IMG/VR virus record: IMGVR_UViG_3300034418_004550
Span: 1-20,440 of that record
Length of the DNA stretch: 20,440 nucleotides
From: a virus
Strand: one strand, 5' to 3'
Shown here: piece after piece, positions 277 to 20,440 of the stretch
Numbering within the stretch: position 1 is the first letter of the stretch
How the letters are laid out: every line of letters begins with the position of its first letter
The notes under the pieces: generated by a model
What the model saw: the letters and a program-made list of their open reading frames with translations, nothing else
Told to the model about the DNA's origin: nothing
The model's database searches: none
Translations under genes and position numbers: made by a program

Positions 277-1110
277 TTACGCAGTGCGATCGTATTGAAC
301 TTTAACCAGACCACCCTCGTCGCGAACGACAGAGCCAGCCTTAAGCATACCGTTGGTCAACCATGCGGTGCGCTCAGGAATCCAGTTAACTTCAGTTTTC
401 ATGTCAATGCCGATTGCAAGGCCAACAGCGGGACGCTGGAAGAACCAAGAATCAACAATGTCAGTTGCAACAGTCAAACCACCTTCGGTACGGGTCTCAA
501 TTACGATGAACTGGAAGCCACACAAAGTGTTGATCTCACCAGATACCAAAGCCTTGATTGACTGATAGTCAGCAGAAGTTGCCTTCTCGTCGTTCAACAG
601 ACCGCCCAAACCATTTGCTTCGATAACCGCAAACAACTCAGAAGAAGGTACGCCTTGGTCACGCAATGCAACTTGAGCAGCGATAACCTTTTCCATAGTA
701 AGGTTAGTGCCACCTTCAGGGATTGCAGTAGTCAAAGGAGTTGAAGCGTCCATAGCGTCGATAACGAGCTGGTCAGAACGGCGGCCCAACGCACCTGCGA
801 TGGTGTTAGCCAGTTCTTGCTTCTCGTCAAAGTTTACTTCGGCAGCGTCAAAGATGTCAGTGTACTCAGGAGCATTCCAGTTGCTCAAAGTAGCAACCTT
901 AAACTCGTGACCCACATCCATTGGAGTTACCAAGTCAGAAGTAGACTTCTGGTTAGCAAGACCTTTACCCATGCGGCGGAATTTGTACTGATCGCCTACA
1001 ACGTTATTACGTACAGTAACTGCGTTTTTCAGCATGCCCATGCCTTGATAGGCATGTTTGACCATACTGTCAAACTCAATCACTGCTACAGCAGATAGAT
1101 TTTTACTCAT
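277..1110 (-). CDS. Major capsid protein (left copy)
   Basis: A 277-aa protein with the look of HK97-fold coat proteins of podovirus-like phages: an N-terminal segment with an FDSMVKHAYQ stretch, then a conserved central part (DIFDAAEVNFDEKQEL, GRRSDQLVIDAMD) and a C-terminal segment with WIPERTAWLTNG. It lies directly after the scaffold gene and before a small beta-rich gene, the standard head-gene order. It should form the icosahedral shell. I place the start at the ATG at 1110 rather than an upstream TTG at 1125, because GAGGG (1119-1123) sits 8 bases before that ATG and overlaps the TTG. A structured 153-bp leader precedes it. A second, dissimilar capsid-type gene lies at the right end of the window, so which one builds the shell is open, although gene context favours this copy. 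Confidence 0.85.
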   Translation of the reverse strand: MSKNLSAVAVIEFDSMVKHAYQGMGMLKNAVTVRNNVVGDQYKFRRMGKGLANQKSTSDLVTPMDVGHEFKVATLSNWNAPEYTDIFDAAEVNFDEKQELANTIAGALGRRSDQLVIDAMDASTPLTTAIPEGGTNLTMEKVIAAQVALRDQGVPSSELFAVIEANGLGGLLNDEKATSADYQSIKALVSGEINTLCGFQFIVIETRTEGGLTVATDIVDSWFFQRPAVGLAIGIDMKTEVNWIPERTAWLTNGMLKAGSVVRDEGGLVKVQYDRTA

Positions 1111-1125
1111 GTGAATAACCCTCAA

Positions 1126-1263
1126 AACGAGTAATTAATAAAAGTTTTGTAGGTCTTCGACTGAGTGCCCGACAGATCGGTCAGCCTACAACCTTAAATA
1201 ATCTGTCAGGCCAAGATGGGTATCCGACCCACGTATAATATCAGTTAGTTATAAGAAAGCAAA
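1126..1263 (-). promoter_or_regulatory. Structured scaffold-capsid intergenic leader
   Basis: Read on the minus strand, this gap holds two hairpins. The first in transcription order is TGGGT/ACCCA (1217-1231, loop of 5). The second is a longer one at 1147-1191: an outer TTGTAGG/CCTACAA stem, then CTGA/TCAG and CCGA/TCGG stems around a TCTG loop, with asymmetric internal loops. It is followed by ACTTTTATT, a weak T-rich tail. A possible promoter lies upstream: TTGCTT (1257-1262), a 16-base spacer and TATTAT (1235-1240). The gap may boost or separately control capsid expression through a promoter, attenuator or RNA-processing hairpin; the sequence does not decide which. Confidence 0.45.
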
Positions 1264-2010
1264 CTAACCGAACGTTTGAGTATAAGGACGGTCGCCACCA
1301 TACTCTTTCATCATGCGCTGAATCTTCGCCTCATGGTTTCGGTCGATAGATCGTAGCAGATTCCCGTTGTCGTCTTTCTTGAACATCTCGCGCTCTATGT
1401 CTTGCCACGTTATACCGCCTGGCTGAACAACGCCGTCAATCGGCAGCTTAGCAGGGGCAGTGGATTTGATTAGAGCCTCAACCAGTTCGACAGACTCAGC
1501 ACTGTTCACCGCATAGCGGAGACGCTCGTAAGTGTCAGGGTCAAGATTGTTCTTCATGAACTGTTCGACGTGCTTGATGCGTTCGGTACCGTTAGCCCCG
1601 AGCTTCTGCAATTCCATCTCAACAGAAACAGACTCAACAGCTTCAGTTTGGGCTTGTAGTAAATCCCAAGCGCGATTAAACGCATCCTGTGACATGTTCG
1701 TTTCTTCAGCAAAGGTCTTTAGCTCGCTGAATAACTCGTCACCATCGTCGACACCTTCCGGCATTTGATAACCGTCTTTAGGTGCGCCAGTGAACCCACC
1801 AAAGCGCTTCTCTAACTCGGTGTATGCCTTAGCCTGGTCGGCAATAGACTTATACTTTTCTGCTTTGTACCAATCGGGACGCTCGCCTGTCCCTTTGATA
1901 CCGTCAATTAAAAAATACTCGTTCTCACCCAGTGTAGGTGAGGCGGCATCTACAAGTGAAACCTGATCCCCTGCACTCAGGGTATCGTCTACAACGGCCT
2001 GATCTTCCAT
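1264..2010 (-). CDS. Capsid assembly scaffolding protein
   Basis: A 248-aa acidic, mostly helical protein without cysteine. The N-terminal third carries a segment (PDWYKAEKYKSIADQAKAY, then LEKRFG, roughly residues 45-71) that is typical of scaffolding proteins of T7-like and marine podoviruses. It continues into Glu- and Gln-rich helices and a basic C-terminal part (HEAKIQRMMKEYGG), where scaffolds usually contact coat protein. Scaffolds direct procapsid assembly and then leave the head. Its position between the portal group and the capsid gene supports the call. GGAG lies before the ATG at 2010, three bases after the stop of the preceding gene. Confidence 0.85.
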   Translation of the reverse strand: MEDQAVVDDTLSAGDQVSLVDAASPTLGENEYFLIDGIKGTGERPDWYKAEKYKSIADQAKAYTELEKRFGGFTGAPKDGYQMPEGVDDGDELFSELKTFAEETNMSQDAFNRAWDLLQAQTEAVESVSVEMELQKLGANGTERIKHVEQFMKNNLDPDTYERLRYAVNSAESVELVEALIKSTAPAKLPIDGVVQPGGITWQDIEREMFKKDDNGNLLRSIDRNHEAKIQRMMKEYGGDRPYTQTFG

Positions 2011-2013
2011 AGT

Positions 2014-2325
2014 TTATCTCCAAGGATATTGAATAACAGCCCTTTTGGGACTGACCTGCTGGTGTTTCAACAGGATTTCAGCGATTCGACGACTACCGTT
2101 AAGTAGCGCCAAGTCGTTGATGTCGATCCAATCCAGATGCTTGTGACCCTTGTAGCACCTGAAGGCTCGGAATTTGTGTATGTATTGGAACTTGTTAAAC
2201 CCGTATTGCTCATGCAATAAATCGAGCCACCCAAACTTGAACCCTTTGGTTTCTAGGAATCCCCGCTCATCACAGATAACTGCATACTTCGCCGCTGGTT
2301 TGCGGCCTCGTTTAGTCTCGCTCAT
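2014..2325 (-). CDS. Hypothetical head-operon protein, 103 aa
   Basis: I do not recognise this family. The product is basic, with an N-terminal KRGRKPAAKY stretch that could bind nucleic acid, followed by many aromatic residues (FKFGWLDLLHEQYGFNKFQYIHKFRAFRCYKG) and a C-terminal helix with Arg and Lys. There is no clear membrane segment. It starts with an ATGA overlap on the Bbp19-like gene and ends three bases before the scaffold gene, so it is cotranslated with head genes. A role in head assembly or head closure is possible from position alone. Confidence 0.65.
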   Translation of the reverse strand: MSETKRGRKPAAKYAVICDERGFLETKGFKFGWLDLLHEQYGFNKFQYIHKFRAFRCYKGHKHLDWIDINDLALLNGSRRIAEILLKHQQVSPKRAVIQYPWR

Positions 2326-2597
2326 AACCTCTCCGCTTGCTTGATTAGATGCAGAATAAACTTAACCACACCGCCTTCACCATTGTGGTACGCCGCCTCA
2401 TACTCGATGTTTTGAGAAGTAAGCGGGGTATTGTTGTCAATGATGAAACGGTTCGTTAAGTCCTCCAGCACTTTGAACCCGTCATCAGTAGAGAAACAAC
2501 GATTGTAAGCCTTGGCTAACTCTACTTGTTTCTCTCTGACTTCGGCCTTTCTCTTATTACTTTCTTCTTGGTCTATCTCTAGTTGATCCCAACTCAT
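2322..2597 (-). CDS. Bbp19-like phage head protein
   Basis: A 91-aa helical protein with the core pattern AYNRCFSTDDGFKVLEDLTN followed by an aromatic/acidic C-terminal half (YEAAYHNGEGGVVKFI). This resembles the Bbp19-like family, named after a Bordetella phage BPP-1 protein and usually found next to T7-type portal genes. Its molecular role is not established. It overlaps the portal stop (ATGA at 2594-2597) and its own stop overlaps the next start, so translation is coupled in both directions. The family call is from memory of the motif and needs a profile search. Confidence 0.65.
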   Translation of the reverse strand: MSWDQLEIDQEESNKRKAEVREKQVELAKAYNRCFSTDDGFKVLEDLTNRFIIDNNTPLTSQNIEYEAAYHNGEGGVVKFILHLIKQAERL

Positions 2598-4162
2598 TCA
2601 ACCGCCCGTAATTGTGGTTGTTGTTGTTGCATTTGTGCAGCTTCAGCACCTGCCTGAATGATCTGCTGTTTCTCAGATTCAGAGCGCACCAATTCCGATG
2701 ACATGCCTGTTTTTTCGGCCGCCCATGTACCAAAGTTCTCGGTCTTAAATGCCATCATCACTTGTTCCGGCCCGGCAGTGGCTAAGACAAACTGAACCGC
2801 TTGCTGTACAGCCATTAGGTCTTCAGAGTCTTGCGCCCTTGCTAGTGGTGACGTGAACTTAATATCAATGTCACGGCCTTCTAGCTGGATAGGTGTAATT
2901 AATCCTCGGCGTGTAAGGATATTAACTACACGCTTGAGAACAGGTACTAGGACTTCAGTCTGCAACCGACCGAATGCAGAACCTATACGCTTAGCTAACT
3001 CCCGAGCCTCGATAGCGATCTCAGTCGCTGTACGCACTGGGCCAGCGGGGTCTCTAAGATCGTTAAACAATGCAACCTTGATTGCGTTTTGCAATTCTTG
3101 AATCTCGAACTGCGCTAGTGCTAGGTTAGTCCCAGTGTCCAAACGCTGTATAGATGGGTTCGACGTGTTGTTAGAGCCAACAGGGATAACAATGCCTGGG
3201 CTAATAGTGATGTTGTAGGGGTTCGTTACACCATCGTCCGTAGCCGTATACATGCCCGCTAGATCAATAGCGGCCTTCTGTAATACGAACTCTTTAGCCT
3301 TATTCAGTGATCGGACATCGGGCAACGTTTGCATTGCAGGGCCACGACCGCGAACCTCACCCGCTACTTTAGTGTAACGGCCAGTAACCCAAGGCGATGA
3401 AATACCGAAATCCTCAAACCACGAGATATGGTCTTCACCATCACACCAGACCATGCCGTAATAGCGCTTCATCTTAGGACAGTAGACAACGCCCTCATGA
3501 ATACCGATCTCGCTATCAGGTGAAGCCTTGATTAAGTTTGCTATCTTCTCGCTTGGCTCAAAGCCTCGCCACATTCTTTCGACTAGACGCGCTTTAACCT
3601 TCATGCGCCGCCAATGGGTTTCGATAGTACCGTAAGGCCCTTCCTCAAACGCTATGCCCTTCTGGGGTATGGCATGAAAGACGATAGGCATATCATCTTC
3701 GTCGGTTTCGTCTATCCGCAGAGTCGCTGTACCCACTAGCAGATCAAGTGCAGCTTCATAGAATTGAGTACCGAAGTTAGAGCGGTTGATGTAATCGAAA
3801 ACAATCTCGGCCTGCTCTTCTAGGTTCTCGCGTATGTCAGTTTCTGACACGCCATAGTCGCCAGTCTCTAACAGCTTGAGTACCTGTTCACTTGGCTGGA
3901 ACGTAGCCCAACGCGCCCAGATAGGTGCGATGTTCTCCTGGAGCTTGCTTGCACCTTGCTGGATAGCAGTCAGTGAAGTCGAATCGAATATCCGATCCAT
4001 CTTTTTCTGACCTTTATCCTCGCGGTCGAATAGGTTTCTTTGGGGTAGAAAGTATTCATACACGTCAGAGAGCTGTGTGTGCCACATAGCTTCAGAGTCG
4101 AAGGCTTTCTTTTCTCTTGTGATTAGATCGTTGAACGATCCCAGGTGTTCAGGTAGTTGCAT
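2594..4162 (-). CDS. Portal protein (T7-like head-tail connector)
   Basis: A 522-aa protein that matches the head-tail connector family of T7-like podoviruses in length and motifs. The N-terminal half has the pattern YFLPQRNLFD, then RIFDSTSLTAIQQGASKLQE and WARWATF; the middle has ETHWRRMKVKARLVERMW and GRGPAMQTLPDVRSLN; the C-terminal part has PAGPVRTATEIAIEARELAK and a Gln-rich tail (AQMQQQQPQLR). Twelve copies should form the ring at the capsid vertex through which DNA enters and leaves. I use the ATG at 4162, one base after the stop of the Gly-rich gene. A longer reading from a TTG at 4201 would overlap that gene and adds no conserved sequence. Confidence 0.93.
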   Translation of the reverse strand: MQLPEHLGSFNDLITREKKAFDSEAMWHTQLSDVYEYFLPQRNLFDREDKGQKKMDRIFDSTSLTAIQQGASKLQENIAPIWARWATFQPSEQVLKLLETGDYGVSETDIRENLEEQAEIVFDYINRSNFGTQFYEAALDLLVGTATLRIDETDEDDMPIVFHAIPQKGIAFEEGPYGTIETHWRRMKVKARLVERMWRGFEPSEKIANLIKASPDSEIGIHEGVVYCPKMKRYYGMVWCDGEDHISWFEDFGISSPWVTGRYTKVAGEVRGRGPAMQTLPDVRSLNKAKEFVLQKAAIDLAGMYTATDDGVTNPYNITISPGIVIPVGSNNTSNPSIQRLDTGTNLALAQFEIQELQNAIKVALFNDLRDPAGPVRTATEIAIEARELAKRIGSAFGRLQTEVLVPVLKRVVNILTRRGLITPIQLEGRDIDIKFTSPLARAQDSEDLMAVQQAVQFVLATAGPEQVMMAFKTENFGTWAAEKTGMSSELVRSESEKQQIIQAGAEAAQMQQQQPQLRAVE

Positions 4163-4163
4163 A

Positions 4164-4523
4164 TTATTTACCCATAGATGAGAACGTGCGCTGTAAGCCA
4201 ATCAGTGACGATCTTGAGTTCTTTATTCCACCGGATGTAGTAGCGCCACCGCCAAACATACCGCCACCACCTGCGCCACCGAGTAGGCCGCCGACACCGC
4301 CAGCGGTCATACCGCCAAGACCAGAGCGTCGACCACCAACACCAGCCGCTTCTTGCCGTGAAGTAGGCGCGCCACCTAGTAGACTAGCCTTGCCCATTTT
4401 CCCGCGAGACAGAGCACGGAAACGGTCTTCTTGCTCTTCGATTTCTTTATCGAGCATTATCTGTTGACGGCGCTCAACTGCTACTTCTTGAGCCGTCTTC
4501 TTGGGTGCCTTTGGTTTACGCAT
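4164..4523 (-). CDS. Gly-rich small protein upstream of portal
   Basis: A 119-aa protein in two parts. The first half is a charged helix (KAPKKTAQEVAVERRQQIML, then KEIEEQEDRF) that may form a coiled coil. The second half is a low-complexity Gly-rich stretch (VGGLLGGAGGGGMFGGGA), probably disordered, ending in a short basic tail. Similar small Gly-rich genes often sit just before T7-type portal genes in environmental phages; their function is unknown. AGAGGT lies upstream of the ATG at 4523. Its start overlaps the stop of the preceding gene by 8 bases and its stop is one base from the portal start. Confidence 0.7.
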   Translation of the reverse strand: MRKPKAPKKTAQEVAVERRQQIMLDKEIEEQEDRFRALSRGKMGKASLLGGAPTSRQEAAGVGGRRSGLGGMTAGGVGGLLGGAGGGGMFGGGATTSGGIKNSRSSLIGLQRTFSSMGK

Positions 4524-4851
4524 TGTTCAACCTCTTGAATAGTTGATAAGGTGTGAGAATCAACGGGTCATTGATTCCTAGAATTTGTTTTGCGTGACCT
4601 ACACATGTGTTCAACATGAATAGATTACGCCTTGATTGTCTCCGCTTAGCTTTGACAATTATCACCTCGTCAAGTTTAAACGGTTGGTCGTCAATAGTAA
4701 AAAGATCAAAGTATTGAGCGGTCTTACCGTAAACGATCCATCGACCGCGATCCGGCACCAACACATAACAGTGTTTAATGAACGGATGCAGGAAGCCAGA
4801 CCACCAGTGCCGATCATCATCGGTGAACACTAGGTAGATGTCAGAAGACAC
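4516..4851 (-). CDS. Conserved phage protein after TerL, possible Cys/His site
   Basis: A 111-aa protein if started at the GTG at 4851, which has AGGGTGG (4858-4864) six bases upstream and overlaps the TerL stop by 11 bases. The open frame extends to an ATG at 4944, but that part lies wholly inside TerL. The pattern WWSGFLHPFIKHCYVLVPD followed about 70 residues later by NTCVGHAKQILGI and TPYQLFKRL recalls a common unnamed phage family with an HC pair, a later Cys and a TPYQL ending. The conserved Cys and His could form a papain-like site, but this is speculation. Basic residues in the middle (KAKRRQSRR) could bind DNA. Confidence 0.65.
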   Translation of the reverse strand: MSSDIYLVFTDDDRHWWSGFLHPFIKHCYVLVPDRGRWIVYGKTAQYFDLFTIDDQPFKLDEVIIVKAKRRQSRRNLFMLNTCVGHAKQILGINDPLILTPYQLFKRLNNA

Positions 4852-6301
4852 TAAACGCCACCCTAGCGGTTGTAGGACGATCAAAGCCTTGCGCTCTAGC
4901 CAATGCCTGTCTTCCCTCGCCTTCGCCTTGTAGAGCGTATTCAAGAGCTTCTACAGGGTGTGAGTATTCGTTCTTATCCGGCTCGTCAGTGTAGCGATCA
5001 CCCGAAACCTGTATACGCCGATAACAGAAGCCGCCTTGTAAGCCCTTGCGAATCATCTTGGCCTTCGGCGTTAATAAGAACCGAGGCTTACCATCCATGC
5101 AGTTTTCCTTCATCGGTAGCTCTAGTGCAGCCCTTCGCATTGCAGGGTCGTTTGTATTCGTAGGTGAACAGGGAATACCCGCCGCCCTGATAATCTTAAA
5201 CGGCGTGTCAGCATTCGCTTGGTTCTTGTTGTCGCCCGATGGATCGCCCCAGCCTTTGAATTTGTGCTCTGGGTAATGAGCGTCGATATAACGTTTCAAC
5301 TGCGGTGCAAAGTCTACCGCCCCGCTATCGGTTAAACAGAACTCATCGAAGCATACCCACCGACCCATTGACGTACGCTGTAGGAATGCACACGCGGGTG
5401 TACGACCAAAGTCGAAGCCTAGAATAATTGGGATGTCTTTCGATGGCTCAAAGTCAGTAGGCGAACAGTGAACCGAGTCTACATACATCGGATGAACAGG
5501 TTTGCCGGACGAAACAAAGCCGTATTCGTTCGCTAGGTTGACCTTGATCCAATCATCGGTCTTGCCTTGCAGACCTCGCGAGTAGTAAGCCGTCGGTAAG
5601 TTGGTTAGGTTTTCAGCATCCGGATTGACTACCCATTTCTCACCATCCCGATACACGCCGCCTGGTTGCCGATGGAAAGCCCAGCCTTCGGGCCGTTCTT
5701 CTTCTGCCAGCTTGTAATACCAATGATCCTCATCCGGTGCGTTCGAGTCGCCAACGATGCCATAGTGTGTAGGCCGTGCGCCTTCCTTTGGTGATGGATA
5801 TCGACCTGCCCGCAGATCGAGCATATCAATAACAGCCTTCGAATGCTCTTTAGCTTCGTTCAGCCACACCCATGTTGTTTGAATACCTCGGGCCTTCTTA
5901 ACATGGTCCGGTCGATCAAAGGCGATGAAGATGACCTCACACCTAACACTGGTGCCGTCTTCTAGTTGGAAGGCTATGCGATGGGTAGGCGGTTCTTTGT
6001 TGCCCTGTTTAAACTCACCCAGGTCGCCCAGTATTTCGATCCAGTCTTTAATGGTGGTGCTGAATAGTTCGGAATAAGTGTTTCGAGCCGCGATGATTCG
6101 AGTTAAGCGTACACCGTGATTAGGGTGCCTCTCATCCTTCACTGGCGCTTGCTCGCACATTAGATCAAACAGCTTGAGTATCGTTTGAACTGTCTTACCG
6201 CTACCAAGCGGGCCCATGATAAATGAATTACGCTCGCGGCAGTCGGCGAACTCTTGCAGGACTTTACCTTGCGGCTTTAAGTGGAACTCAATCGTTGGCA
6301 T
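4841..6301 (-). CDS. terL: Terminase large subunit
   Basis: A 486-aa DNA-packaging motor protein, full length. The N-terminal ATPase has a Walker A motif GPLGSGKT at residues 30-37 and a Walker B-like VWLNEAKE at about 145-152 with the catalytic Glu at 149. The C-terminal RNase H-fold nuclease shows GFDFGR (Asp297), GWGDPSGDNK (Asp353) and a late acidic/His segment NEYSHPVEALEYAL (about 444-457). It translocates DNA into the prohead through the portal and cuts the concatemer. The ATG at 6301 shares one base with the TerS stop (TAATG), with no strong Shine-Dalgarno site, so translation probably depends on coupling to TerS. Confidence 0.95.
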   Translation of the reverse strand: MPTIEFHLKPQGKVLQEFADCRERNSFIMGPLGSGKTVQTILKLFDLMCEQAPVKDERHPNHGVRLTRIIAARNTYSELFSTTIKDWIEILGDLGEFKQGNKEPPTHRIAFQLEDGTSVRCEVIFIAFDRPDHVKKARGIQTTWVWLNEAKEHSKAVIDMLDLRAGRYPSPKEGARPTHYGIVGDSNAPDEDHWYYKLAEEERPEGWAFHRQPGGVYRDGEKWVVNPDAENLTNLPTAYYSRGLQGKTDDWIKVNLANEYGFVSSGKPVHPMYVDSVHCSPTDFEPSKDIPIILGFDFGRTPACAFLQRTSMGRWVCFDEFCLTDSGAVDFAPQLKRYIDAHYPEHKFKGWGDPSGDNKNQANADTPFKIIRAAGIPCSPTNTNDPAMRRAALELPMKENCMDGKPRFLLTPKAKMIRKGLQGGFCYRRIQVSGDRYTDEPDKNEYSHPVEALEYALQGEGEGRQALARAQGFDRPTTARVAFSVF

Positions 6302-9781: not shown

Positions 9782-9784
9782 GAC

Positions 9785-10710: not shown

Positions 10711-10722
10711 GCTGGAGGGCGT

Positions 10723-11090: not shown

Positions 11091-11100
11091 GGGAGCCGCA

Positions 11101-12172: not shown

Positions 12173-12174
12173 TT

Positions 12175-13350
12175 ATGAGTGATTGGGGTGGATTGCTAGA
12201 GTTTTGTGAGACAGATAGGCAGCGGGAAATAATCGAACTAAGAAGGCAGGGCTTATCTGTTAGGCAGGTTTCCGAAATAGTTGGGATTGCTGGGCGCAAT
12301 GTTCAATCGGCCTGTAGTAGAGTAAGGGCTGCCGCCGCTAGGCAAGGCTATTCCCCTGAACATGATATGGTTCATACTGTGCCCGATGGCTATAGAGTCA
12401 AGGGAACGTCTACGTTATACAAAGATGGCGAGCCTACAATCCAGTGGGTCAAGTCTGACATTGATAACGAACGCCAAATGCAACTCATGCGCGAGGCTAT
12501 CGAGGCGCTCACTGAAGAGATCAAGCCAGAGCCAAAGGTAAATAAGCCAAAGGTTAAGAAGTCCGAGCTGTGCAACATGTACGTGATTACGGACTACCAT
12601 GCAGGGATGTTAGCCTGGCATGAAGAGACTGGAGCCGATTGGGACTTGCAGATAGCCGAAGACACTTTGGTTAAATGGTTTGCCCAAGCAATAGAGCAAA
12701 GCCCGCAAGCCGATGTTGCAGTATTCGCTCAACTTGGTGACTTTCTGCACTTCGATTCACTTGAGGCGGTAACACCCGCTAGTCGGCACATTCTCGATGC
12801 AGACACTCGTTTCCAGAAGCTAGTCAGGACAACCATTCGAGTGATTCGCAGGGTCATTAGAATGTTGCTAGAGAAGTATCCAAAGGTGCATGTAAAGTGG
12901 TGCGATGCAAACCACGATCCGGCTAGTAGCGCTTGGATGCGCGAGTTCTTAGTGGCTCTATATGACAAGGAGCCGAGGATTGAGGTCGATAATACGGCTG
13001 ACACTTATTACTGTTTTGAATGGGGCAAGACGGCCCTATTTTTTCATCACGGCCACAAGCGCAAGGTGGCTAATGTGGACTCGGTATTCGCGGCAAAGTT
13101 TAGAGAAGTATTCGGTAGGACCGAACACGCCTACGCGCACATGGGTCACTACCATAGTATTGACGTTAAAGAGACAAACCTAATGCTTGTCACTCAGCAC
13201 AGGACGCTTGCTGCACCCGATGCCTACGCAAGCCGTGGCGGTTGGATGTCAGGCCGAGAGGCACAAGTGATTACTTATCACAAAGAGTTTGGGCAAGTTG
13301 GTAGCCAAACTATCAGCTATAAAATGATCGAAAGGGAGACAGTAAAATGA
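12175..13350 (+). CDS. HTH-metallophosphoesterase fusion
   Basis: A 391-aa protein with two domains. Residues about 10-55 form an HTH like sigma70 region 4 (RQREIIELRRQGLSVRQVSE, IVGIAGRNVQ). A Lys/Pro-rich linker (KPEPKVNKPKVKK) leads to a calcineurin-like phosphoesterase with all metal-site motifs: TDYHAG (Asp140, His142), GDFLHFD (Asp189, His192), ANHD (Asn246, His247, Asp248), HHGH (291-294) and GHYH (His325, His327). Members act as nucleases or phosphatases; with the annealing and HNH genes nearby, a DNA-processing role is most likely. The substrate is not known. The HTH may target it to phage DNA. Confidence 0.85.
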   Translation: MSDWGGLLEFCETDRQREIIELRRQGLSVRQVSEIVGIAGRNVQSACSRVRAAAARQGYSPEHDMVHTVPDGYRVKGTSTLYKDGEPTIQWVKSDIDNERQMQLMREAIEALTEEIKPEPKVNKPKVKKSELCNMYVITDYHAGMLAWHEETGADWDLQIAEDTLVKWFAQAIEQSPQADVAVFAQLGDFLHFDSLEAVTPASRHILDADTRFQKLVRTTIRVIRRVIRMLLEKYPKVHVKWCDANHDPASSAWMREFLVALYDKEPRIEVDNTADTYYCFEWGKTALFFHHGHKRKVANVDSVFAAKFREVFGRTEHAYAHMGHYHSIDVKETNLMLVTQHRTLAAPDAYASRGGWMSGREAQVITYHKEFGQVGSQTISYKMIERETVK

Positions 13351-13541
13351 TTGCACTAATGATTTGCGACGACTGTAATCAGCAGATGACTGAAATATTT
13401 ACAGCGCAAGATGACTTTCGATTAAAGGGTTGGATGTGCGAGGGATGTTTTCATTTCGCCCCCGCCATCGGTCGGGAAAAAAAATGGACAATGGAGGATA
13501 AAGATGGCGATCAAGAGGGACGCAGCGGACAAGTGGTTTAG
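13347..13541 (+). CDS. Small zinc-ribbon protein, 64 aa
   Basis: A 64-aa protein with two CxxC pairs, Cys7/Cys10 (CDDC) and Cys31/Cys34 (CEGC), 20 residues apart, which fits a zinc ribbon. The C-terminal part is charged and probably flexible (REKKWTMEDKDGDQEGRSGQ). It starts with ATGA on the phosphoesterase stop and overlaps the HNH gene start by 38 bases. The zinc fold is inferred from cysteine spacing. Its function is unknown; coupling with the nuclease genes suggests a DNA-related helper. Confidence 0.65.
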   Translation: MIALMICDDCNQQMTEIFTAQDDFRLKGWMCEGCFHFAPAIGREKKWTMEDKDGDQEGRSGQVV

Positions 13542-13887
13542 CGATGTTGTAAGATTTAAGGGATACTGCGAGCACTGCGGTCGCTCAGACCTTAGACTAG
13601 AGTGCTGCCACATTCACGGCAGACGCAAGAAAATATTACGATGGGATTTAATGAATGCAGTTTGTATGTGTAGTGGATGCCATAGACACATGACAGAAAA
13701 CCCGACTAAGTTTGTAAGATGGTTAGAGCAATACTTCGGCCCTGCCCATTTAGATATCTTACAGGAAAAGAGTAACGGTATCTTGAAGGCAAATGAAACA
13801 GTCAGAAAGGATATCGCCAAGCACTATCGAGAAGAATACCGGAAGCTCGAACAAGACTCCGAGTATAAACCCCAGAGTTACATGTAA
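13504..13887 (+). CDS. HNH-type phage endonuclease (NinG-like region)
   Basis: A 127-aa protein with a treble-clef nuclease core: CEHC at residues 22-25, CCHIHGR (Cys35, His36) as the first catalytic strand, NAVCMCSGCHRH (Asn51, Cys56, Cys59, His60) as the second half, then a helical tail (FVRWLEQYFGPAHLDIL). Such small HNH proteins cut DNA with a metal and serve in phage recombination or genome processing. GGAGG lies before the ATG at 13504. It is the last gene of the rightward block and its stop overlaps the stop of the lysozyme gene on the other strand. Confidence 0.8.
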   Translation: MAIKRDAADKWFSDVVRFKGYCEHCGRSDLRLECCHIHGRRKKILRWDLMNAVCMCSGCHRHMTENPTKFVRWLEQYFGPAHLDILQEKSNGILKANETVRKDIAKHYREEYRKLEQDSEYKPQSYM

Positions 13888-13888
13888 C
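13877..13888. repeat. 12-bp palindrome holding both convergent stop codons
   Basis: GTTACATGTAAC is a perfect palindrome at the meeting point of the HNH gene (plus) and the lysozyme gene (minus). Both TAA stops lie inside it, so both proteins end in Tyr-Met. No T-tract flanks it, so it is not an intrinsic terminator by itself. Confidence 0.9.
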
Positions 13889-14288
13889 ATCCAGTCTCCA
13901 CCATATAAGCTAGTTCTTTCGCTCGGTCTCCAACCTGGTCCGCCCACTTGGAGTCGAGCATTTCAACAGCCGCTTGAGAGTATGCACCTTCAGCCATAAA
14001 CTTGAGTGTTCGTTTAAATTCTAGGAAGGTAGGTAGACCAAGGTTGAATAGCATGTTAACCATTGCCTCTTGTCTAACCTGGTCTAAGTCGTGAAACCAA
14101 GAGAACACATCGAGTTCTTCGTAGCATCGCTGAATGTCGGACATTAATAACATCTCAGCCTCTTTCTCAGAGATGCCCATATCCTCCAAATTCCTGCCAA
14201 AACCGATGGTTATTTTACCTTCAGAGCATAAGTAAGGCTTGAGCCTTAACCCTTCATGTCTCTTAAGATTTTCGATCAATTTTTGCAC
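13878..14288 (-). CDS. Endolysin, T4-type lysozyme (GH24)
   Basis: A 136-aa muramidase that cuts the glycan strands of peptidoglycan at lysis. The catalytic motif is at the N-terminus: HEGLRLKPY with Glu12, then Cys21 at the Asp position and Thr27 (ITIGFGRN), which gives the E-8-D/C-5-T pattern of this family with Cys in place of Asp. The helical lobe follows with QEAMVNMLFNLGLPTFLEFK. There is no signal peptide, so it needs the holin. The start is a GTG at 14288 with AAAGG upstream, overlapping the preceding small gene by 26 bases. The length is near the low end of the family. Confidence 0.92.
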   Translation of the reverse strand: MQKLIENLKRHEGLRLKPYLCSEGKITIGFGRNLEDMGISEKEAEMLLMSDIQRCYEELDVFSWFHDLDQVRQEAMVNMLFNLGLPTFLEFKRTLKFMAEGAYSQAAVEMLDSKWADQVGDRAKELAYMVETGCYM

Positions 14289-14403
14289 GCTTTGCCTTTG
14301 ACATTGAGATGGCTACGGCTTGCTTCTGGGGGTAGCCTTCAGACAATAGAGTCTTGATATTCTTTGATACGGTTTTATCTGACCGACCTTTGAGTAATGG
14401 CAT
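14263..14403 (-). CDS. Small basic conserved phage protein, 46 aa
   Basis: A 46-aa product starting at the ATG at 14403, which shares a base with the holin stop (TAATG). The sequence PLLKGRSDKTVSKNIKTLLS, then EGYPQKQAVAISMSKAKRAK matches a very common small phage family: KG-x-S, NI-x-x-L and QAVAI are its signature. Its function is not known. Members are usually found next to structural or lysis genes. It is positively charged and probably helical. It overlaps the lysozyme start by 26 bases, so translation may be linked. Confidence 0.8.
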   Translation of the reverse strand: MPLLKGRSDKTVSKNIKTLLSEGYPQKQAVAISMSKAKRAKIDRKS

Positions 14404-14801
14404 TACTGATCTCTCGCTACTGACTTCGTTTTCTCGTAGGTTCTGAACGCACCCAGCCCTAGCATACCCATTAGCACTGGGAGCATCTGACTTAAATCAA
14501 GAGAGGGTATTACTGTACCATCCCCGATAAGAGCCAAAGTAAAATTGCCCAGAGGGACGATGATATAATTAAACCCGAGACCACTAGCGCATATCCAACC
14601 AGTGGCCGGACGCCATCCTGCAACAAATAGTGACTTATGCGCTGCTTCAGTCCGGTTAACTTCGATTTGAGCCTTAGCAATCTCGTGAGCTTGGCGTTCT
14701 GTGAGCGTAGCAATCTCATGGGCTAGCTTATTCCTTTCATCCGCATCAGGGATTACTTTGTCCAGCAGTGGTGCAATTGCCGAGACAAGTAAGGAGATCA
14801 T
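14403..14801 (-). CDS. Holin, 3-TM type
   Basis: A 132-aa inner-membrane protein. It has a hydrophobic N-terminal helix (ISLLVSAIAPLLDKVI), a charged helical stretch (LAHEIATLTERQAHEIAKAQ, NRTEAAHK), then a GWRPATGW motif followed by two membrane segments (about residues 68-93 and 104-120). The GWRP-x-x-GW box before the membrane segments is the mark of the 3-TM holins related to those of gene-transfer agents. It should form the lesions that release the lysozyme. It starts with ATGA on the next gene upstream and ends at the small basic gene. Confidence 0.88.
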   Translation of the reverse strand: MISLLVSAIAPLLDKVIPDADERNKLAHEIATLTERQAHEIAKAQIEVNRTEAAHKSLFVAGWRPATGWICASGLGFNYIIVPLGNFTLALIGDGTVIPSLDLSQMLPVLMGMLGLGAFRTYEKTKSVARDQ

Positions 14802-15130
14802 AAACCGCCTTTAATCCAGAAGCCAATAGCGCCCATCAATATGGCCATAGCTGCACGCTCGATCCATTGATCCTTGGCTTGCTTCAATTCAATAGATTGT
14901 ATGCGTTTCTCGTGGCCTTTGACCTCATCTTTTATGAGCGCCTGGATCTCATCAATCCGCTGGTGCGCTCTTGTAATGGCGTCAGTTAAATTAACCTGGC
15001 GTTGTTCAATTCCTGCCAAGTTTCTTAGGGTATCAGCGATGCTAGTCAAGGCCGATTTCATCTCATGGATGTCGCTGGCCATAGCTTCTTGTTGGGCTTC
15101 TAGCTTCGCAACCGACCTTTCCACTGTCAT
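14798..15130 (-). CDS. XhlA-like coiled-coil membrane protein
   Basis: A 110-aa protein with a long coiled coil over about residues 1-90 (heptad-like LEAQQEAMASDIHEMKSALT and IDEIQALIKDEVKGHEKRIQ) and one membrane helix at the C-terminus (AAMAILMGAIGFWIKGGL). This layout fits the XhlA-like proteins that accompany holins; a spanin-like role is also possible, but there is no lipobox or second gene nested inside. GAGG lies six bases before the ATG at 15130. Its stop overlaps the holin start (ATGA). Confidence 0.75.
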   Translation of the reverse strand: MTVERSVAKLEAQQEAMASDIHEMKSALTSIADTLRNLAGIEQRQVNLTDAITRAHQRIDEIQALIKDEVKGHEKRIQSIELKQAKDQWIERAAMAILMGAIGFWIKGGL

Positions 15131-15132
15131 AA

Positions 15133-15282
15133 CTACCTCGCTGTTCTCGCCGCAGCTTTAAAATCCGCAGCCGATGGCGCACCTTTCTCGCCTGGTTTTC
15201 TCATGCGCTCACCAGAACCCCTAGCAATGCGCTCTTGTTTCCTTCGGATGTTTTCATATAATCCGCGCTTCGGCTTTCTCAC
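15133..15282 (-). CDS. Small conserved basic phage protein, 49 aa
   Basis: A 49-aa product read from a GTG at 15282 that overlaps the previous stop (GTGA), with AGGGTGA upstream. The sequence KRGLYENIRRKQERIARGSG followed by ERMRKPGEKGAPSAADFKAA has the RGLY-x-NI, GSGE-x-MRKPG and KGAP-x-A-x-F elements of a widespread small phage family of unknown function. It is strongly basic. It sits between two other conserved small genes of the lysis/tail block, and its TAG stop is two bases from the XhlA-like start. Confidence 0.8.
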   Translation of the reverse strand: MRKPKRGLYENIRRKQERIARGSGERMRKPGEKGAPSAADFKAAARTAR

Positions 15283-15557
15283 CACTTCACCCTATCTGCC
15301 CAGTAAGCCGCAGACATTCTGCCCTTGGCTATGTTTCTTCGATGCCGAGCCTTGAATGATTCTCGACGCTTGCGCTGTGCTTCTGACTCACCTTCTTTTG
15401 CAGGTGAACCAGATACGCCCTGCTGACCAAAGCGTATGGTTCTAATTTTATCACCTTCTTTTGCCACAACAACATGAGATTTTGTCGGATGGCTAGGAGT
15501 CTTTTTGGGCTTGTTGTAGCCGCTAACTCCGATCCGCTTCAGCAGCGACTTGCTCAT
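15279..15557 (-). CDS. Conserved basic phage protein, 92 aa
   Basis: A 92-aa, highly basic protein with three conserved blocks: GVSGYNKPKKTPSHPTKSHV, KIRTIRFGQQGVSGSPAKEG and RKRRESFKARHRRNIAKGRM ending in SAAYWADRVKW. It belongs to a family found in many environmental phages; no function is assigned that I recall. The charge suggests nucleic-acid contact, possibly packaging with the DNA in the virion. It overlaps the end of the gene upstream by 35 bases and its TGA overlaps the next GTG. The start at 15557 fits the usual family N-terminus (short lead, then GV-x-GYNKPK). Confidence 0.8.
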   Translation of the reverse strand: MSKSLLKRIGVSGYNKPKKTPSHPTKSHVVVAKEGDKIRTIRFGQQGVSGSPAKEGESEAQRKRRESFKARHRRNIAKGRMSAAYWADRVKW

Positions 15558-15744
15558 CTTCAGACTCTCCGCTAACAGAGTTAACCAGCATATCGCTAAA
15601 CGTTTGCTTGGCCACTAAAAGTTGATCCATCTGAAATCGAAAGCCATTTAGCTTGGTCTCGATGTCCTGGATTTGAGACACAACATACTTCTGTTCGTTG
15701 GTCAGTTGATCCTCGGTGTATTCTTTCCCGTCTATAGTAATCAT
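15523..15744 (-). CDS. DUF6447-like small helical protein
   Basis: A 73-aa product started at the ATG at 15744, which overlaps the preceding stop as ATGA and has GAGGGG upstream; an open frame runs further up to 15807 but lies inside the other gene. The sequence ITIDGKEYTEDQLTNEQKYV, SQIQDIETKL then LVAKQTFSDML matches the short phage family with an ITIDGKEY start and a two-helix hairpin (I believe DUF6447). Its role is unknown; members are often near tail or lysis genes. The C-terminus is acidic. Confidence 0.75.
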   Translation of the reverse strand: MITIDGKEYTEDQLTNEQKYVVSQIQDIETKLNGFRFQMDQLLVAKQTFSDMLVNSVSGESEDEQVAAEADRS

Positions 15745-16121
15745 AATCCCCTCGCCTTTGTGAATAGCATCTTCAGTGCAACTTGATATGTTAGATAGAA
15801 GCCCCAATGAAACTTGTGACCGAGTGACACCATGTGTTCTTTAGTCACAAACTCTTTAGTCCAATTGTCTATGTACTGGCCTTTGTACCTTAACACCGCA
15901 TGGCCTTCGCCATCGTTCTTAACGTAACAAATCTTTGCTCTGCTTAGTAGCAGTAACCAGAACTTAAACAAAGACTTCTCAGCTATAACGTAGTACAAGA
16001 CACCCAAGGCGTAATCTTCACAGTCCCCAAGTATTTTTCCGTTTACAATCTTGGGTATGCGCCACTGGTCACCTTGATCTGCCTTGTACTCAAACAGACT
16101 ATTGAACGTGTCCAGTATCAC
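15741..16121 (-). CDS. Transglutaminase-like cysteine peptidase family protein
   Basis: A 126-aa protein with the three active-site elements of transglutaminase-like proteases in order: GDCEDYAL with the nucleophile Cys (residue 34 from the GTG), GEGHAVLR with His74, and YIDNWT with Asp85. A hydrophobic segment (FKFWLLLLS) lies between. Members cut or cross-link proteins, or cleave peptide cross-links. Here it may act on the host envelope, on fibre proteins or in lysis. The substrate is not shown. I start it at the GTG at 16121, with GGAG seven bases upstream, overlapping the previous gene by four bases. A TTG one codon earlier is the alternative. Confidence 0.75.
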   Translation of the reverse strand: MILDTFNSLFEYKADQGDQWRIPKIVNGKILGDCEDYALGVLYYVIAEKSLFKFWLLLLSRAKICYVKNDGEGHAVLRYKGQYIDNWTKEFVTKEHMVSLGHKFHWGFYLTYQVALKMLFTKARGL

Positions 16122-16408
16122 CAAGGCACTCCGGTAACAGTAGTTGGTGCTTTCTGTGCTTCAATCTGTGCAGTCAGTGCGGCCTCGGTCTGCATCTTAT
16201 CAACCTGACCCCATACCCACACGATTACATCGTTCTCTGTAAGGCTTTCATAAGGCACGTATGAAGGATCAGAAGGATCTGGTGTGAAGCTACAAGTACC
16301 ATAGCTAGATGCGCTGTAATCACCATCTACGACCTCACAGCCCCAATGAGCAACCATCACTGCCTTGTCTGAGTCGTTGGTGTATTCGAGTAGTTTAATA
16401 GTCCACAT
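16118..16408 (-). CDS. DUF7936-like fibre-associated protein
   Basis: A 96-aa protein with WTIKLLEYTNDSDKAVMVAH, then WGCEVVDGDYSASSYGTCSF, YESLTENDVIVWVWGQVDK and a final TTVTGVPW. These blocks match a small family in many marine phages that I recall as DUF7936, located near tail-fibre genes. It may assist fibre assembly or be a virion component. GGAG lies before the ATG at 16408. It follows the 70-aa gene by two bases and runs into the protease gene by four bases, so it is translated with both. Confidence 0.7.
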   Translation of the reverse strand: MWTIKLLEYTNDSDKAVMVAHWGCEVVDGDYSASSYGTCSFTPDPSDPSYVPYESLTENDVIVWVWGQVDKMQTEAALTAQIEAQKAPTTVTGVPW

Positions 16409-16410
16409 GA

Positions 16411-16623
16411 TTACGCTCCAAAGACTGCGTTACAGATTGCTTGTACGTTAGCAGGTTCTTGTGAGTAGTCGTCATCTGCTGAGATTACGTGGCGGTGATA
16501 AGAGCTAGAGATTACTTCTCCGTCTTCAACGACGCGAGTAGCGGTGCGCACTTGTACTACCGTTGATTCGCCTGTTTCGACTACTTCGATTTTGTCTGCC
16601 ACTACTTCTTTAGTTAATGCCAT
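16411..16623 (-). CDS. Small conserved phage protein near tail fibre, 70 aa
   Basis: A 70-aa protein with the blocks ALTKEVVADKIEVVETG, VVQVRTATRVVEDGEVISSS and YHRHVISADDDYSQEPANVQ. The order of VxDKIEVV, VQVRTATxxxEDG and HRHV is a known combination in environmental phages, always near the fibre. Strand-rich in the first half. No biochemical role is known to me. AGGAG lies before the ATG at 16623. A hairpin (16648-16667) separates it from the tail-fibre gene. Confidence 0.75.
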   Translation of the reverse strand: MALTKEVVADKIEVVETGESTVVQVRTATRVVEDGEVISSSYHRHVISADDDYSQEPANVQAICNAVFGA

Positions 16624-16647
16624 TTTTGTTTCTCCTAAGTTAGTCCG

Positions 16648-16667
16648 TCTCTAGAGTCCACTAGAGA
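16648..16667 (-). other. Intergenic hairpin after tail-fibre gene
   Basis: TCTCTAG-loop of six-CTAGAGA, a perfect 7-bp inverted repeat just after the fibre stop. There is no T-tract, so it could stabilise the fibre mRNA end or pause polymerase, and it lies just before the AGGAG of the next gene. Confidence 0.6.
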
Positions 16668-16670
16668 TAA

Positions 16671-18929
16671 TTAAGATGTAAAATAAGTTAAATTTATAAC
16701 AAAGGTTGTTCCATTCTGAATTTCTTCGGCGTTCGCATTGGCTGATAGCACCTCTGGAACATCACCCAAAAATATTCTTGCTGTTGACGTACCACCAACG
16801 GATGGAGCATTTAAAGCAAAGTCAATAGCGTTTTTGTTAACCGCATCATTAAAATAAATAGAGCCAACATATAATCCGTTTGTTGCTATATCTGTAGCGA
16901 AAGGTAATGTTATTTGTATATAACCAGACGGACTAGCCGCCGCTGATACGCTTATTGATCCAGTCAAAGTAACTTGACGACCAATTTTTGTATATCTCAT
17001 TGCTGATGTATAAGTAGCGCTACCGCTATTAAATGTTAATGTTGGAGTAAACGTACCTTCCTCATAATCATCCAACAGATTAGACCCGCCAACACCACCG
17101 AGATAGACACCGCCTGATAGGTATAGGTTTCTGAATCTACGACTGCTTCCTGTTACAGTTCCTAAATCAATGGCGGCATCTCTATCTGTTCCAGTTGACA
17201 CATTGAAAGGCGCGATTGCGTCAGCGCCGCCACCAAAGCTAATTCCTGTATCTGAAGATCCAATGTATAAGTTAGATCCTGTGTTACCAATACTACCGAC
17301 TGGTGTGCCAGCAGCGCGAAACTCAATGATGTCGCCATCTTCGCCGCGGCCAATCCGATGCGTTTGTCCAGACACTTGAGCATTAAGCCGTCCACCAGCC
17401 GATAAAGCTATGCCATCTACCCCCGCGCCTGCGGGGTTAGTGTTAGTACCCCCCAACAACAAGCTGCCAGTGCTGTCGATGCGCATACGTTCTGACGTAC
17501 TAGTGCCAAAGCGCAAACTGTCGTCTGAGTGCTGGTAATTTATGTATCCTGCATAACCACTGCCTGAGTCACCAAAATATACAGATCCAGAAGATCCACC
17601 GAGCGTTAGAAGACCGCCAGTACCTGATAAAGCACCTATTTGTACAGCTTGTGCAACACTAAACGGATTGCTTACAGTAGTAGTACCAATACCAACATTG
17701 CCACCATCAGGCTGTAGAACTAATGACTCACCTGCATTTGTATACGTGTCAGTAGAAATTTGATAAGCCGCCACAGATAAACTTGCATAGCGATTACTTG
17801 CCGTAGCTCCTCCAGTTAAGCTCGTAACAAGACCAAACCTAAAGTCATCTACGTCATTAGTATGCAGAAAAGTGGTATCAACAGTAGATGCGGTTGTTCT
17901 GGCGCTTCCGTTGTTGATTGTGAGCTTTGTATAAGGACTCGAAGTGCCAATACCAACATTGCCAACATTGTCTATGGTCATACGTGTTGCTGGCTCATCT
18001 GCTCCATTTCTTGTTCCAAACTCTAACTTGGAAGTTCTGTCGCTTGTGGCATCCCATGCTTGTGTTTTTGTTGCTTTGATAAAAGCTGAGTCAGTAACAG
18101 AAGTGCCATAAGAGCGATAATGCCGAAACATTATCTCCGTAGAATCACCTGCTGTATCCGTAGTGTATCCGTTAGATATTACAAGACCTGTAGAGTCTGC
18201 GGAGCTACTATCATAAATTGATAACTTAGCATCAGGACTCGTAGTACCAATACCCAAAGACTCAGCAGAAGCGTCCCAAAAGAACTTTGCGGTTGTGCCC
18301 GTGTCTTCGTAGAATGAGATGTCTCCACCAGAGCCAATGTTGATACGGTCTTTTCCGTTAGTTGCAAGAGTAAGTTGACCAAATGAGCCAGACGTACCTG
18401 TTGAATCAATTTTATATAAAAAACCAGAACCACCCGTTTCAGAAATGGCTAATTGTCTATTAGGAGAGGCATCCACTCCATTGCTTATATTAACAATGGG
18501 CGAAGTGCTACCTGATGAGGAGCTACTAACAGTCAACCCATCAGCCGTGAGTGTGCCTGTTACGTCTACGCCTGTGGCTGTGGTGGCTAGTTTGGCGCTT
18601 GTGTTGTGATATAAAGTTGTTTCTGAGTCTATATCAATTTGCATAACAACATTGTCGCTTCCATCAAGAAAGTTAAAGTTGTTGCCGTTCGACTTAAAAT
18701 TTAAATTACCTGTACCAGCATCCTCAATATAGTTTTGCGAACCTGTGTGATAAATCTGTAGGTCATCACCAGCACCCCACGTAGACTTAACATTGTCTGG
18801 ATGTTTGTTTAAATTAGTTACACTGATACGTTTAGTTTGTGAGACACTGTTGTCTACAATTGCAACCTCATCACCAGCCGCAGGACCTTCAGCTAACTCT
18901 GTAAGTTGTGTAATTTTTACGTCAGCCAT
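16671..18929 (-). CDS. Tail fibre / receptor-binding protein
   Basis: A 752-aa protein rich in Gly, Ser and Thr. The N-terminus (ADVKITQLTELAEGPAAGDE, VAIVDNSVSQTKR) resembles the virion-attachment part of fibres in marine phages. The shaft carries repeats with the core VGIGTSSP: about residues 223-232 (LGIGTTSPDAKL), 323-333 (NVGIGTSSPYTKL) and 410-420 (NVGIGTTTV). The C-terminus starts with DYEEGTFTPTLTF, then MRYTKIGRQVTLTG, a beta head domain common in such fibres. No S74 autochaperone peptidase is visible. It should bind the host surface. GGAG lies before the ATG. A/T content is higher here than in neighbouring genes, as often seen for exchanged fibre genes. Confidence 0.85.
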   Translation of the reverse strand: MADVKITQLTELAEGPAAGDEVAIVDNSVSQTKRISVTNLNKHPDNVKSTWGAGDDLQIYHTGSQNYIEDAGTGNLNFKSNGNNFNFLDGSDNVVMQIDIDSETTLYHNTSAKLATTATGVDVTGTLTADGLTVSSSSSGSTSPIVNISNGVDASPNRQLAISETGGSGFLYKIDSTGTSGSFGQLTLATNGKDRINIGSGGDISFYEDTGTTAKFFWDASAESLGIGTTSPDAKLSIYDSSSADSTGLVISNGYTTDTAGDSTEIMFRHYRSYGTSVTDSAFIKATKTQAWDATSDRTSKLEFGTRNGADEPATRMTIDNVGNVGIGTSSPYTKLTINNGSARTTASTVDTTFLHTNDVDDFRFGLVTSLTGGATASNRYASLSVAAYQISTDTYTNAGESLVLQPDGGNVGIGTTTVSNPFSVAQAVQIGALSGTGGLLTLGGSSGSVYFGDSGSGYAGYINYQHSDDSLRFGTSTSERMRIDSTGSLLLGGTNTNPAGAGVDGIALSAGGRLNAQVSGQTHRIGRGEDGDIIEFRAAGTPVGSIGNTGSNLYIGSSDTGISFGGGADAIAPFNVSTGTDRDAAIDLGTVTGSSRRFRNLYLSGGVYLGGVGGSNLLDDYEEGTFTPTLTFNSGSATYTSAMRYTKIGRQVTLTGSISVSAAASPSGYIQITLPFATDIATNGLYVGSIYFNDAVNKNAIDFALNAPSVGGTSTARIFLGDVPEVLSANANAEEIQNGTTFVINLTYFTS

Positions 18930-18932
18930 GAC

Positions 18933-19073
18933 TTACTCCGTAATAATCTTATCACCAGCTTCAGTTACGATGTTGTCGCTGGATTCTGTCAATAGATACG
19001 CTCCAGTTAAGTAGCCTATAGCTTTACCTACGGCATTCTTAACGAGCAGAAAGTTAGTGCGTACAAACTGCAT
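18933..19073 (-). CDS. Small hypothetical protein, 46 aa
   Basis: A 46-aa product starting at the ATG at 19073 directly after the preceding stop (TAAATG). The first half is hydrophobic (FVRTNFLLVKNAVGKAIGYL) and the second half carries a repeat-like acidic motif (LTESSDNIVTEAGDKIITE). Similar TExGDxIITE endings occur in short phage proteins beside fibre genes. A structural or assembly role is inference. Its stop lies four bases before the fibre ATG and its last codons hold the fibre Shine-Dalgarno site, so expression is linked. Confidence 0.65.
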   Translation of the reverse strand: MQFVRTNFLLVKNAVGKAIGYLTGAYLLTESSDNIVTEAGDKIITE

Positions 19074-19376
19074 TTAGATCATCTCCGTCACGTACAGCGT
19101 ACCATCAGCAGCGTTACGAATAACAGCTACTTGATCGCCTTCATAAACGTGAACATACTCAACAGCCAACGATGGTAGAAACACATCGCTAGTCGTAGCT
19201 GTACCTGAGGTGAGAGTGTAGTGGCAGTCTGTGTCGCTTACAAGACGGAGTACACGACAACCAGCACTGACGGCTGTTGACTGTGCTGACGAAGCTGTGA
19301 TGCTTACGGTGTCTGTAGAGTTGGGACGTAGGACTTGGATGGGTGCTGCGTTGCGGTCTTTTGCTAAAGCTGACAT
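19074..19376 (-). CDS. Small beta-rich virion protein (hypothetical)
   Basis: A 100-aa protein with many Val, Thr and Ser residues in alternating strands: NSTDTVSITASSAQSTAV, CRVLRLVSDTDCHYTLTSG, VEYVHVYEGDQVAVIRNAAD. The composition fits a jelly-roll or Ig-like domain. No family is recognised. AGGAG lies before the ATG at 19376. It follows the terminator after the second capsid-type gene, and is read into the fibre operon. It parallels the 85-aa gene after the left capsid in position and style, but the sequences are not visibly similar. It may be a head or tail decoration protein. Confidence 0.7.
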   Translation of the reverse strand: MSALAKDRNAAPIQVLRPNSTDTVSITASSAQSTAVSAGCRVLRLVSDTDCHYTLTSGTATTSDVFLPSLAVEYVHVYEGDQVAVIRNAADGTLYVTEMI

Positions 19377-19420
19377 GTTGTCTTTCTCCTATGAAAATAG
19401 AATGGAGCGTGTCCGAAGTG

Positions 19421-19453
19421 TAAATAAAGCGGGGCTACTTAATTCACCCCGCT
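19421..19453 (-). terminator. Intrinsic terminator after second capsid-type gene
   Basis: On the minus strand AGCGGGG (19447-19453) pairs with CCCCGCT (19428-19434) around a 12-base loop, followed by TTATTTA. The stem is 7 bp and GC-rich with a T-rich tail, a good rho-independent terminator 8 bases after the stop of the gene. Confidence 0.8.
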
Positions 19454-19461
19454 AGAGACGC

Positions 19462-20440
19462 TTAGGCGTCAGGTACTACAAGTACGAAGCCAGCTTCTGG
19501 ACGGTATGCTTGTACGCCATACAGCGTGTCAGCAGTGTACAGAGTTGACAAGTACTCTTGCTTGTACTGCGTCTGTGAACGTACAGACATCTGCTCAGCA
19601 AGGATGATGGCGTCTTTGTGCATCAAGAACGCACCACGCATATCGACAGTTGCTGCTGAGTTGCTAGCAGCGTCTTCAATAACGGGGCAGTTGCTTGATA
19701 CGTATACGTCAATGCCGTACAAAGAACCAATCAAACCAGACTGTACAGTGCGTGGATCGGTGAAGTCGCTAGATACATAACGAGAAGTACCCATGATTTC
19801 AGAGCGAAGCGCAGGTGGGATAATAAATACACGTCCGTCCATTGGTACGTTTGCATCATCCATTTTCTTGATAAGGCCACGAAGAGCCGCATCAGTGAAA
19901 ACGTCTGTAGCAGCAACAGTGTCGTCAGTGTAGTTAGTTAGACCGCCACTAGCGTTAAAGTAAACGTTGCTGTTCTCCCATGCAGTACCGGTAACTCCGG
20001 GGCTTAGGTTAAGAGTACCATCACCAAAGCCAGTACCTGCGTTGAAGAGGTCAGTGTCTACCTGAAGTGCAAGAGCATAACCTGCATCATCAGTGTAGAA
20101 TCGACGTAGGCTCTGAAGAGCTTGTACTTCAACGATGTCTTCGATCAGACGTGAGTATTCGAAGTGACGGTTGATCGTAACAGTTAGTTCGTCTTCCAAG
20201 TTAGCTTGGATGGTTACAGCTTCTGCTTCACCTTTTGCAGCTGCTGAGCCACGTACGGGCTTAGGAATGTGAATCACATCGCCTTTTTTGCCTTTCATGG
20301 TCATCTTTTTAACAAGAGGAGCCATCTTAAGGTTTTTCTGATATGCAGCAATGACCTCATCACTCCAAATAGCTGGAATAAAGGTTGCTGCTGCTGTTTT
20401 GTCTACTACAGCATTAGCTGTAAAGTAATTGTCTGAAACT
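19462..20440 (-). CDS. Second capsid-type protein (5' end outside window)
   Basis: The visible part is 325 residues; the start lies beyond 20440. It matches another set of HK97-fold coat proteins: FIPAIWSDEVIAAYQKNLKM near the N-terminus, KKGDVIHIPKPVRGSA, HFEYSRLIEDIVEVQALQSL, RRFYTDDAGYALALQVDTDL, then a variable part and a C-terminal YLSTLYTADTLYGVQAYRPE. Many phages have this type as their only shell protein. It is distinct from the left capsid protein by sequence and would be a second one in the same molecule. It ends in a strong terminator. It could be an accessory shell protein, a coat gene of another phage joined by assembly, or the true coat with the left gene as the accessory. Confidence 0.85.
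   Translation of the reverse strand, partial: VSDNYFTANAVVDKTAAATFIPAIWSDEVIAAYQKNLKMAPLVKKMTMKGKKGDVIHIPKPVRGSAAAKGEAEAVTIQANLEDELTVTINRHFEYSRLIEDIVEVQALQSLRRFYTDDAGYALALQVDTDLFNAGTGFGDGTLNLSPGVTGTAWENSNVYFNASGGLTNYTDDTVAATDVFTDAALRGLIKKMDDANVPMDGRVFIIPPALRSEIMGTSRYVSSDFTDPRTVQSGLIGSLYGIDVYVSSNCPVIEDAASNSAATVDMRGAFLMHKDAIILAEQMSVRSQTQYKQEYLSTLYTADTLYGVQAYRPEAGFVLVVPDA

Follow-up and report, generated by a model that had tools for sequence, protein, structure and literature searches.

An uncultivated virus contig with two HK97-type major capsid genes probably joins two co-occurring podoviruses

The window analysed here is the entire IMG/VR record IMGVR_UViG_3300034418_004550, which comprises 20,440 bases and is classed as linear. 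No direct or inverted repeats were found at its ends. Circular closure of the contig was rejected on this ground, on the finding that the joined ends give a right-hand capsid gene without a start codon, and on the observation that near-identical contigs run on differently at the two ends. The left part of the minus strand carries the small terminase subunit (TerS), the large terminase subunit (TerL, 4841 to 6301; PHROG 2, 1.5e-19; 52.9% identical to the TerL of BcepC6B), g142, g119, the portal or head-tail connector (2594 to 4201; PF12236, 1.1e-76; PHROG 332), g91, g103, a scaffold or head-assembly protein (1264 to 2010; PHROG 1052 head assembly, 7.4e-5), capsid A (277 to 1110), and small gene A (6 to 263). 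Early genes occupy the plus strand between approximately 7 and 13.9 kb; their products include an Erf-type annealing protein, an exonuclease-like protein, and an HNH nuclease of the NinG-like kind (early region, 9158 to 13887). The right part, again on the minus strand, carries capsid B (19462 to 20439), small gene B (19074 to 19376), a fibre gene (16671 to 18929), the g127-g96-g70 cassette (15741 to 16623), g94, and a lysis region of g92, g110, holin, and lysozyme (13878 to 15557).

Judged by their sequence relationships, the genes at 277 to 1110 and 19462 to 20439 are both genuine HK97-type major capsid genes, as each has a full-length capsid profile and is related to a solved HK97-fold capsid. 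The 277-aa capsid A matches Pfam PF19821 (Phage_capsid_2, E=3.5e-64) and the PHROG 3437 major head protein (3.1e-49), and its residues 1 to 273 match the solved LME-1 phage capsid 9eg4 (E=9.4e-39). Across 80 IMG/VR loci its identity is 86 to 100%. The 325-aa capsid B matches the PHROG 267 major head protein (4.9e-49) and the solved cyanophage A4 capsid 9jwb (E=1.2e-47). It is truncated by the contig end and lacks four codons, and its start (MAGE-) is seen four codons further upstream in the near-identical contig L192. Structure prediction gave an unusable model for capsid A (pLDDT 31), for which the input alignment was too uniform, and a model of medium quality for capsid B (pLDDT 58), whose best Foldseek matches were all phage capsids, 9jwb first, with low TM-scores. 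The fold assignment therefore rests on the relation of the two sequences to solved capsids. The first-pass annotation, made from the letters of the DNA, had described two dissimilar coat genes at opposite ends of the record, each followed by a small gene, and the profiles and solved relatives confirm this arrangement beyond chance. The two coats belong to different families, as had been proposed, and are distant cousins: they share 23% identity over approximately half their length, and the PF19821 and PHROG 267 profiles each match both capsids, that of the other family weakly.

The small genes had been read as a shared downstream pattern of beta-rich proteins. Each capsid gene is indeed followed by a small gene, but the parallel is superficial, since direct comparison found the two proteins to be unrelated. 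Small gene A (85 aa; PHROG 18004, 2.9e-19, function not assigned) follows capsid A in most lineage-A contigs, and a profile search with small gene B (100 aa) gave no significant family. A terminator had also been placed after the right capsid gene, and a terminator-like hairpin (AGCGGGG-loop-CCCCGCT followed by TTATTT) does lie between capsid B and small gene B; it was identified by eye, and its loop is longer than the hairpin scan permits. As a separate observation, a 217-aa protein encoded two genes past capsid A in a related contig (L002, 4488 to 5141) is related to small protein A in its N-terminal domain (33% identity over 51 residues). Both match PHROG 18004, which suggests that the tail operon contains a longer paralogue of small gene A.

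The relatives of the two parts of the record fall into two different lineages of marine podoviruses, which are short-tailed phages. Lineage A is represented by the left 15.5 kb or so (TerS, TerL, portal, scaffold, and the PF19821 capsid), and its IMG/VR relatives, found by capsid A, are contigs of up to 38 kb that keep the left gene order of the window, including the scaffold just ahead of the capsid, and carry tail genes after small gene A. The closest known phages are the MEP301-like marine podoviruses: Methylophilales phage MEP301 (34.8 kb), Pelagibacter phage EXVC031P Hodr, and Vibrio podoviruses with a PF19821-type capsid. Capsid A is 42.9% identical to the PF19821 capsid of MEP301, and the lineage-A TerL is 36 to 37% identical to those of MEP301 and Hodr. 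Lineage A and the MEP301-like phages both have a head-tail connector portal and a genome of approximately 30 to 35 kb. Capsid identity to the closest isolates stays under 45%, and the lineage-A relatives, unlike this record, have no PHROG 267 capsid. Lineage B is represented by the right 4.7 kb or so (g127, g96, g70, fibre, small gene, and the phrog_267 capsid). It comprises marine podoviruses that are uncultivated, have a PHROG 267 capsid, and are distantly like cyanophages A-4L, Pf-WMP3, and PP; capsid B shares the capsid family of the cyanopodophages (27 to 31% identity; structure 9jwb). Its relatives, on contigs of up to 37 kb, have their own distinct TerL, portal, scaffold, and tail genes and no PF19821-type lineage-A capsid.

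Both lineages are complete phages in their own right and have only one coat gene each. When six A and six B phages were compared by contig, their head modules were mutually exclusive, and none of the 87 A loci or 127 B loci carried both capsids in one locus. Capsid B was absent from 16 lineage-A records of 22 to 38 kb in a scan in which five lineage-B control records matched, and capsid A was absent from 12 lineage-B records of 23 to 37 kb in a scan in which seven lineage-A control records matched. Small gene B was likewise not found in the 16 lineage-A records, with controls in the same run. A scan of a genome collection with capsid B returned only MAG contigs, none of which carried capsid A or gave a reliable host. 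That both coats belong to one genome is not supported by these loci, nor by the near-complete genomes of the two lineages, which carry one coat each.

Two near-identical contigs show what lies beyond the ends of the record. L002 is 99.9% identical to positions 1 to 3891 and extends 2 kb beyond the left end, where it encodes a 185-aa tail protein (PHROG 394), the 217-aa protein, and a further tail protein that belongs to PHROG 376. L192 is 99.3% identical to positions 18826 to 20440, with one difference over 18892 to 20440, and extends 1.5 kb beyond the right end; upstream of capsid B it has a 264-aa gene in scaffold position that finds matches only in lineage B among the genomes compared. In the nearest relatives, therefore, capsid A is followed by the tail genes of lineage A and capsid B is preceded by the head genes of lineage B. 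Different parts of the record match different genomes, and none covers the whole of it.

Sliding identity to the best relatives is 83 to 100% in most stretches for which any relative is known. Per 100 bases, lineage A gives the best identity as far as about 15,557, the end of the lysis region and of the last clearly A-like DNA, and lineage B gives it from 15,755 on. The zone in which the best relatives change (15557 to 15755, minus strand) holds g94 and the 3' end of g127, and the change point falls at the ATGA overlap of these two genes (15741 to 15744). The g127-g96-g70 cassette has its nearest DNA relatives in lineage-B contigs, and the N-terminus of the fibre (about residues 1 to 60) is of the lineage-B type. 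A lineage-B contig, assigned by its tail genes (L188), matches 15755 to 16683 at 90%, and the match ends a few codons short of the end of g127, whose last codons resemble the A-type ending in the alignment. The order capsid B, small gene B, fibre, g70, and g96 is found on one independent contig (L195). The order fibre-g70-g96-g127-g92 is also normal for lineage A, as in L297, which has a 64-aa gene where g94 sits; the fibre-g70-g96-g127 cassette thus has an order common to both lineages, with lower identity in the known A strains, and conserved stretches of the fibre recur in many contigs. The alignment revealed no long stretch of exact identity shared by known strains of A and B at 15.56 to 15.76 kb, and scans with g127, g96, fibre, holin, and g94 recovered no contig spanning the change point. 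An assignment of g94 to one lineage was dropped, as the gene is too variable. We also considered as a lineage boundary the fibre junction at 18.8 kb, where identity to L192 ends abruptly, and set it aside because the same fibre start is found together with lineage-B genes in L194 and L195, and B-like identity persists in L195 and L188 down to 15.755 kb. Close to the change point, g92 (15279 to 15557; PHROG 7595, function not assigned) is a widely shared small phage gene that occurs in both lineages at different positions, adjoining lysis genes in lineage A and portal or capsid in lineage B.

Collectively, these results suggest that the record probably joins two co-occurring phages, most likely as an assembly chimera with the join at about 15.56 to 15.76 kb. 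Positions 1 to about 15.56 kb, with the terminase, portal, scaffold, PF19821 capsid, lysis, and early genes, would come from a lineage-A phage, and about 15.76 to 20.44 kb, with the PHROG 267 capsid, small gene, fibre, g70, g96, and g127, from a lineage-B phage. We infer that the assembler made the join, the short-read assembly graph passing from one phage to the other through the cassette, because the order of this cassette is common to both lineages and its conserved stretches recur in many phages. What favours a chimera is the combination of no relative with both coats, the exclusive contexts past the two ends, and a linear, incomplete record. The first-pass annotation had named a joined assembly of two phages as the main alternative to a genuine two-coat genome, and it has become the best-supported reading, since each end continues into the modules of its own lineage and no both-capsid relative was found. 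A known assembly error produces chimeric contigs when viruses that occur together have similar regions; one contig is then likewise similar to two genomes, of which neither covers it (PMC5610896). In one benchmark, chimeras made up less than 5% of the contigs that were at least 10 kb long (PMC5610896), so the prior for a chimera is modest; we judge a stable two-coat podovirus to have an even lower prior.

The change coincides with a clean gene boundary, marked by the ATGA overlap, in a gene order that is normal for lineage A. A viable natural recombinant would look the same, so this counts against a chimera, and together with the lack of a long exact match it keeps a natural recombinant in play. 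Shared, exchangeable cassettes are sites both of short-read assembly crossover between viruses and of real recombination. In such a recombinant, a lineage-A phage would have acquired a lineage-B block from the capsid through g127 and would carry two coat genes at least temporarily. In its favour, the order of genes across the change point is unbroken, with translational coupling, fibre-g70-g96-g127 cassettes pass between lineages, a third lineage among them, and lineage B shows recombination between the capsid and the small gene and fibre. Against these points stand the absence of any relative with both coats in the loci and the control-backed record scans, and the near-identical L192, which has the B scaffold gene, not A tail genes, upstream of its capsid. 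The A fibres examined (L297 and L307) moreover have a different, T7-like N-terminus, so a recombinant would need both the B capsid and the B fibre anchor to have been brought in. We consider this origin unlikely, and a little less likely still its strict form, a natural A/B recombinant podovirus whose single packaged genome has two capsid genes, both complete and only distantly related. The earlier suggestion of an exchange caught in progress could hold only as a natural recombinant.

The assembly error may also lie further right, in a lineage-A phage that naturally has a B-like cassette from g127 to part of the fibre. The join to capsid B would then sit inside the fibre or in the near-invariant block of small gene B and fibre start at 18,867 to 19,344. 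These 478 bases are identical between the window and L195, of which the capsid DNA is only about 65% identical to that of the window, and short reads could hence not resolve the block; the gene order from fibre to lysis is also canonical for lineage A. The block was, however, found only in lineage-B contigs and never in lineage-A records. We regard this placement as improbable; it is a variant of the preferred explanation that differs only in the location of the join, and with a join inside the fibre block included, a chimera becomes somewhat more probable than with the join at g127 alone.

In the lineage-B contigs L194 to L197, the spacer that separates small gene B from the fibre is 100% identical to that of the window and small gene B about 94 to 95% identical, with only about 66% identity in the capsid DNA; in L198, the capsid is 87% identical to that of the window and small gene B only 64%. 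Small gene and fibre start are thus exchanged independently of the capsid, the small protein tracking the fibre and not the shell. That small gene B moves with the fibre start speaks against its designation as a shell decoration protein by position alone. Across L192 and L194 to L198, positions 18867 to 19376 form a near-invariant stretch between strongly diverged capsid and fibre sequences, as if heads and fibres were swapped by recombination at this joint.

It is very improbable that one phage uses both coat proteins to build a mixed or accessory shell, as the first-pass annotation had also envisaged. Except where the contig end cuts capsid B, both genes are intact, and they have full-length capsid profiles, but the coats show no conserved co-occurrence in either lineage, and within its lineage each coat comes with a separate scaffold gene. 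The near-complete genomes of the two lineages lack the other coat, the ends of the record continue into their own modules, and under the preferred chimeric reading a shell built from both coats would be expected in neither phage. A two-coat phage, if true, would be a rare intermediate of capsid exchange; most likely, this record gives no evidence of a two-shelled virus. It cautions that lineages can be fused via exchangeable fibre cassettes in the contigs of uncultivated viruses, and when a linear contig has a second hallmark gene, that gene should be compared with near-identical contigs that run past the contig ends.

The fibre genes have further relatives. In an 8,091-bp contig of a third lineage (L191), g70-g96 is 86 to 91% identical to the window and lies directly before portal-like, scaffold-like, and capsid-like genes. 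Its capsid-like protein is 22% identical to capsid B, and a relative of g127 is found at the other end of the contig. This arrangement suggests that at least three phage lineages exchange the fibre accessory cassette. The contigs L390 and L394 also have the lineage-B fibre N-terminus (67%), near a terminase gene that encodes a distant TerL (30%).
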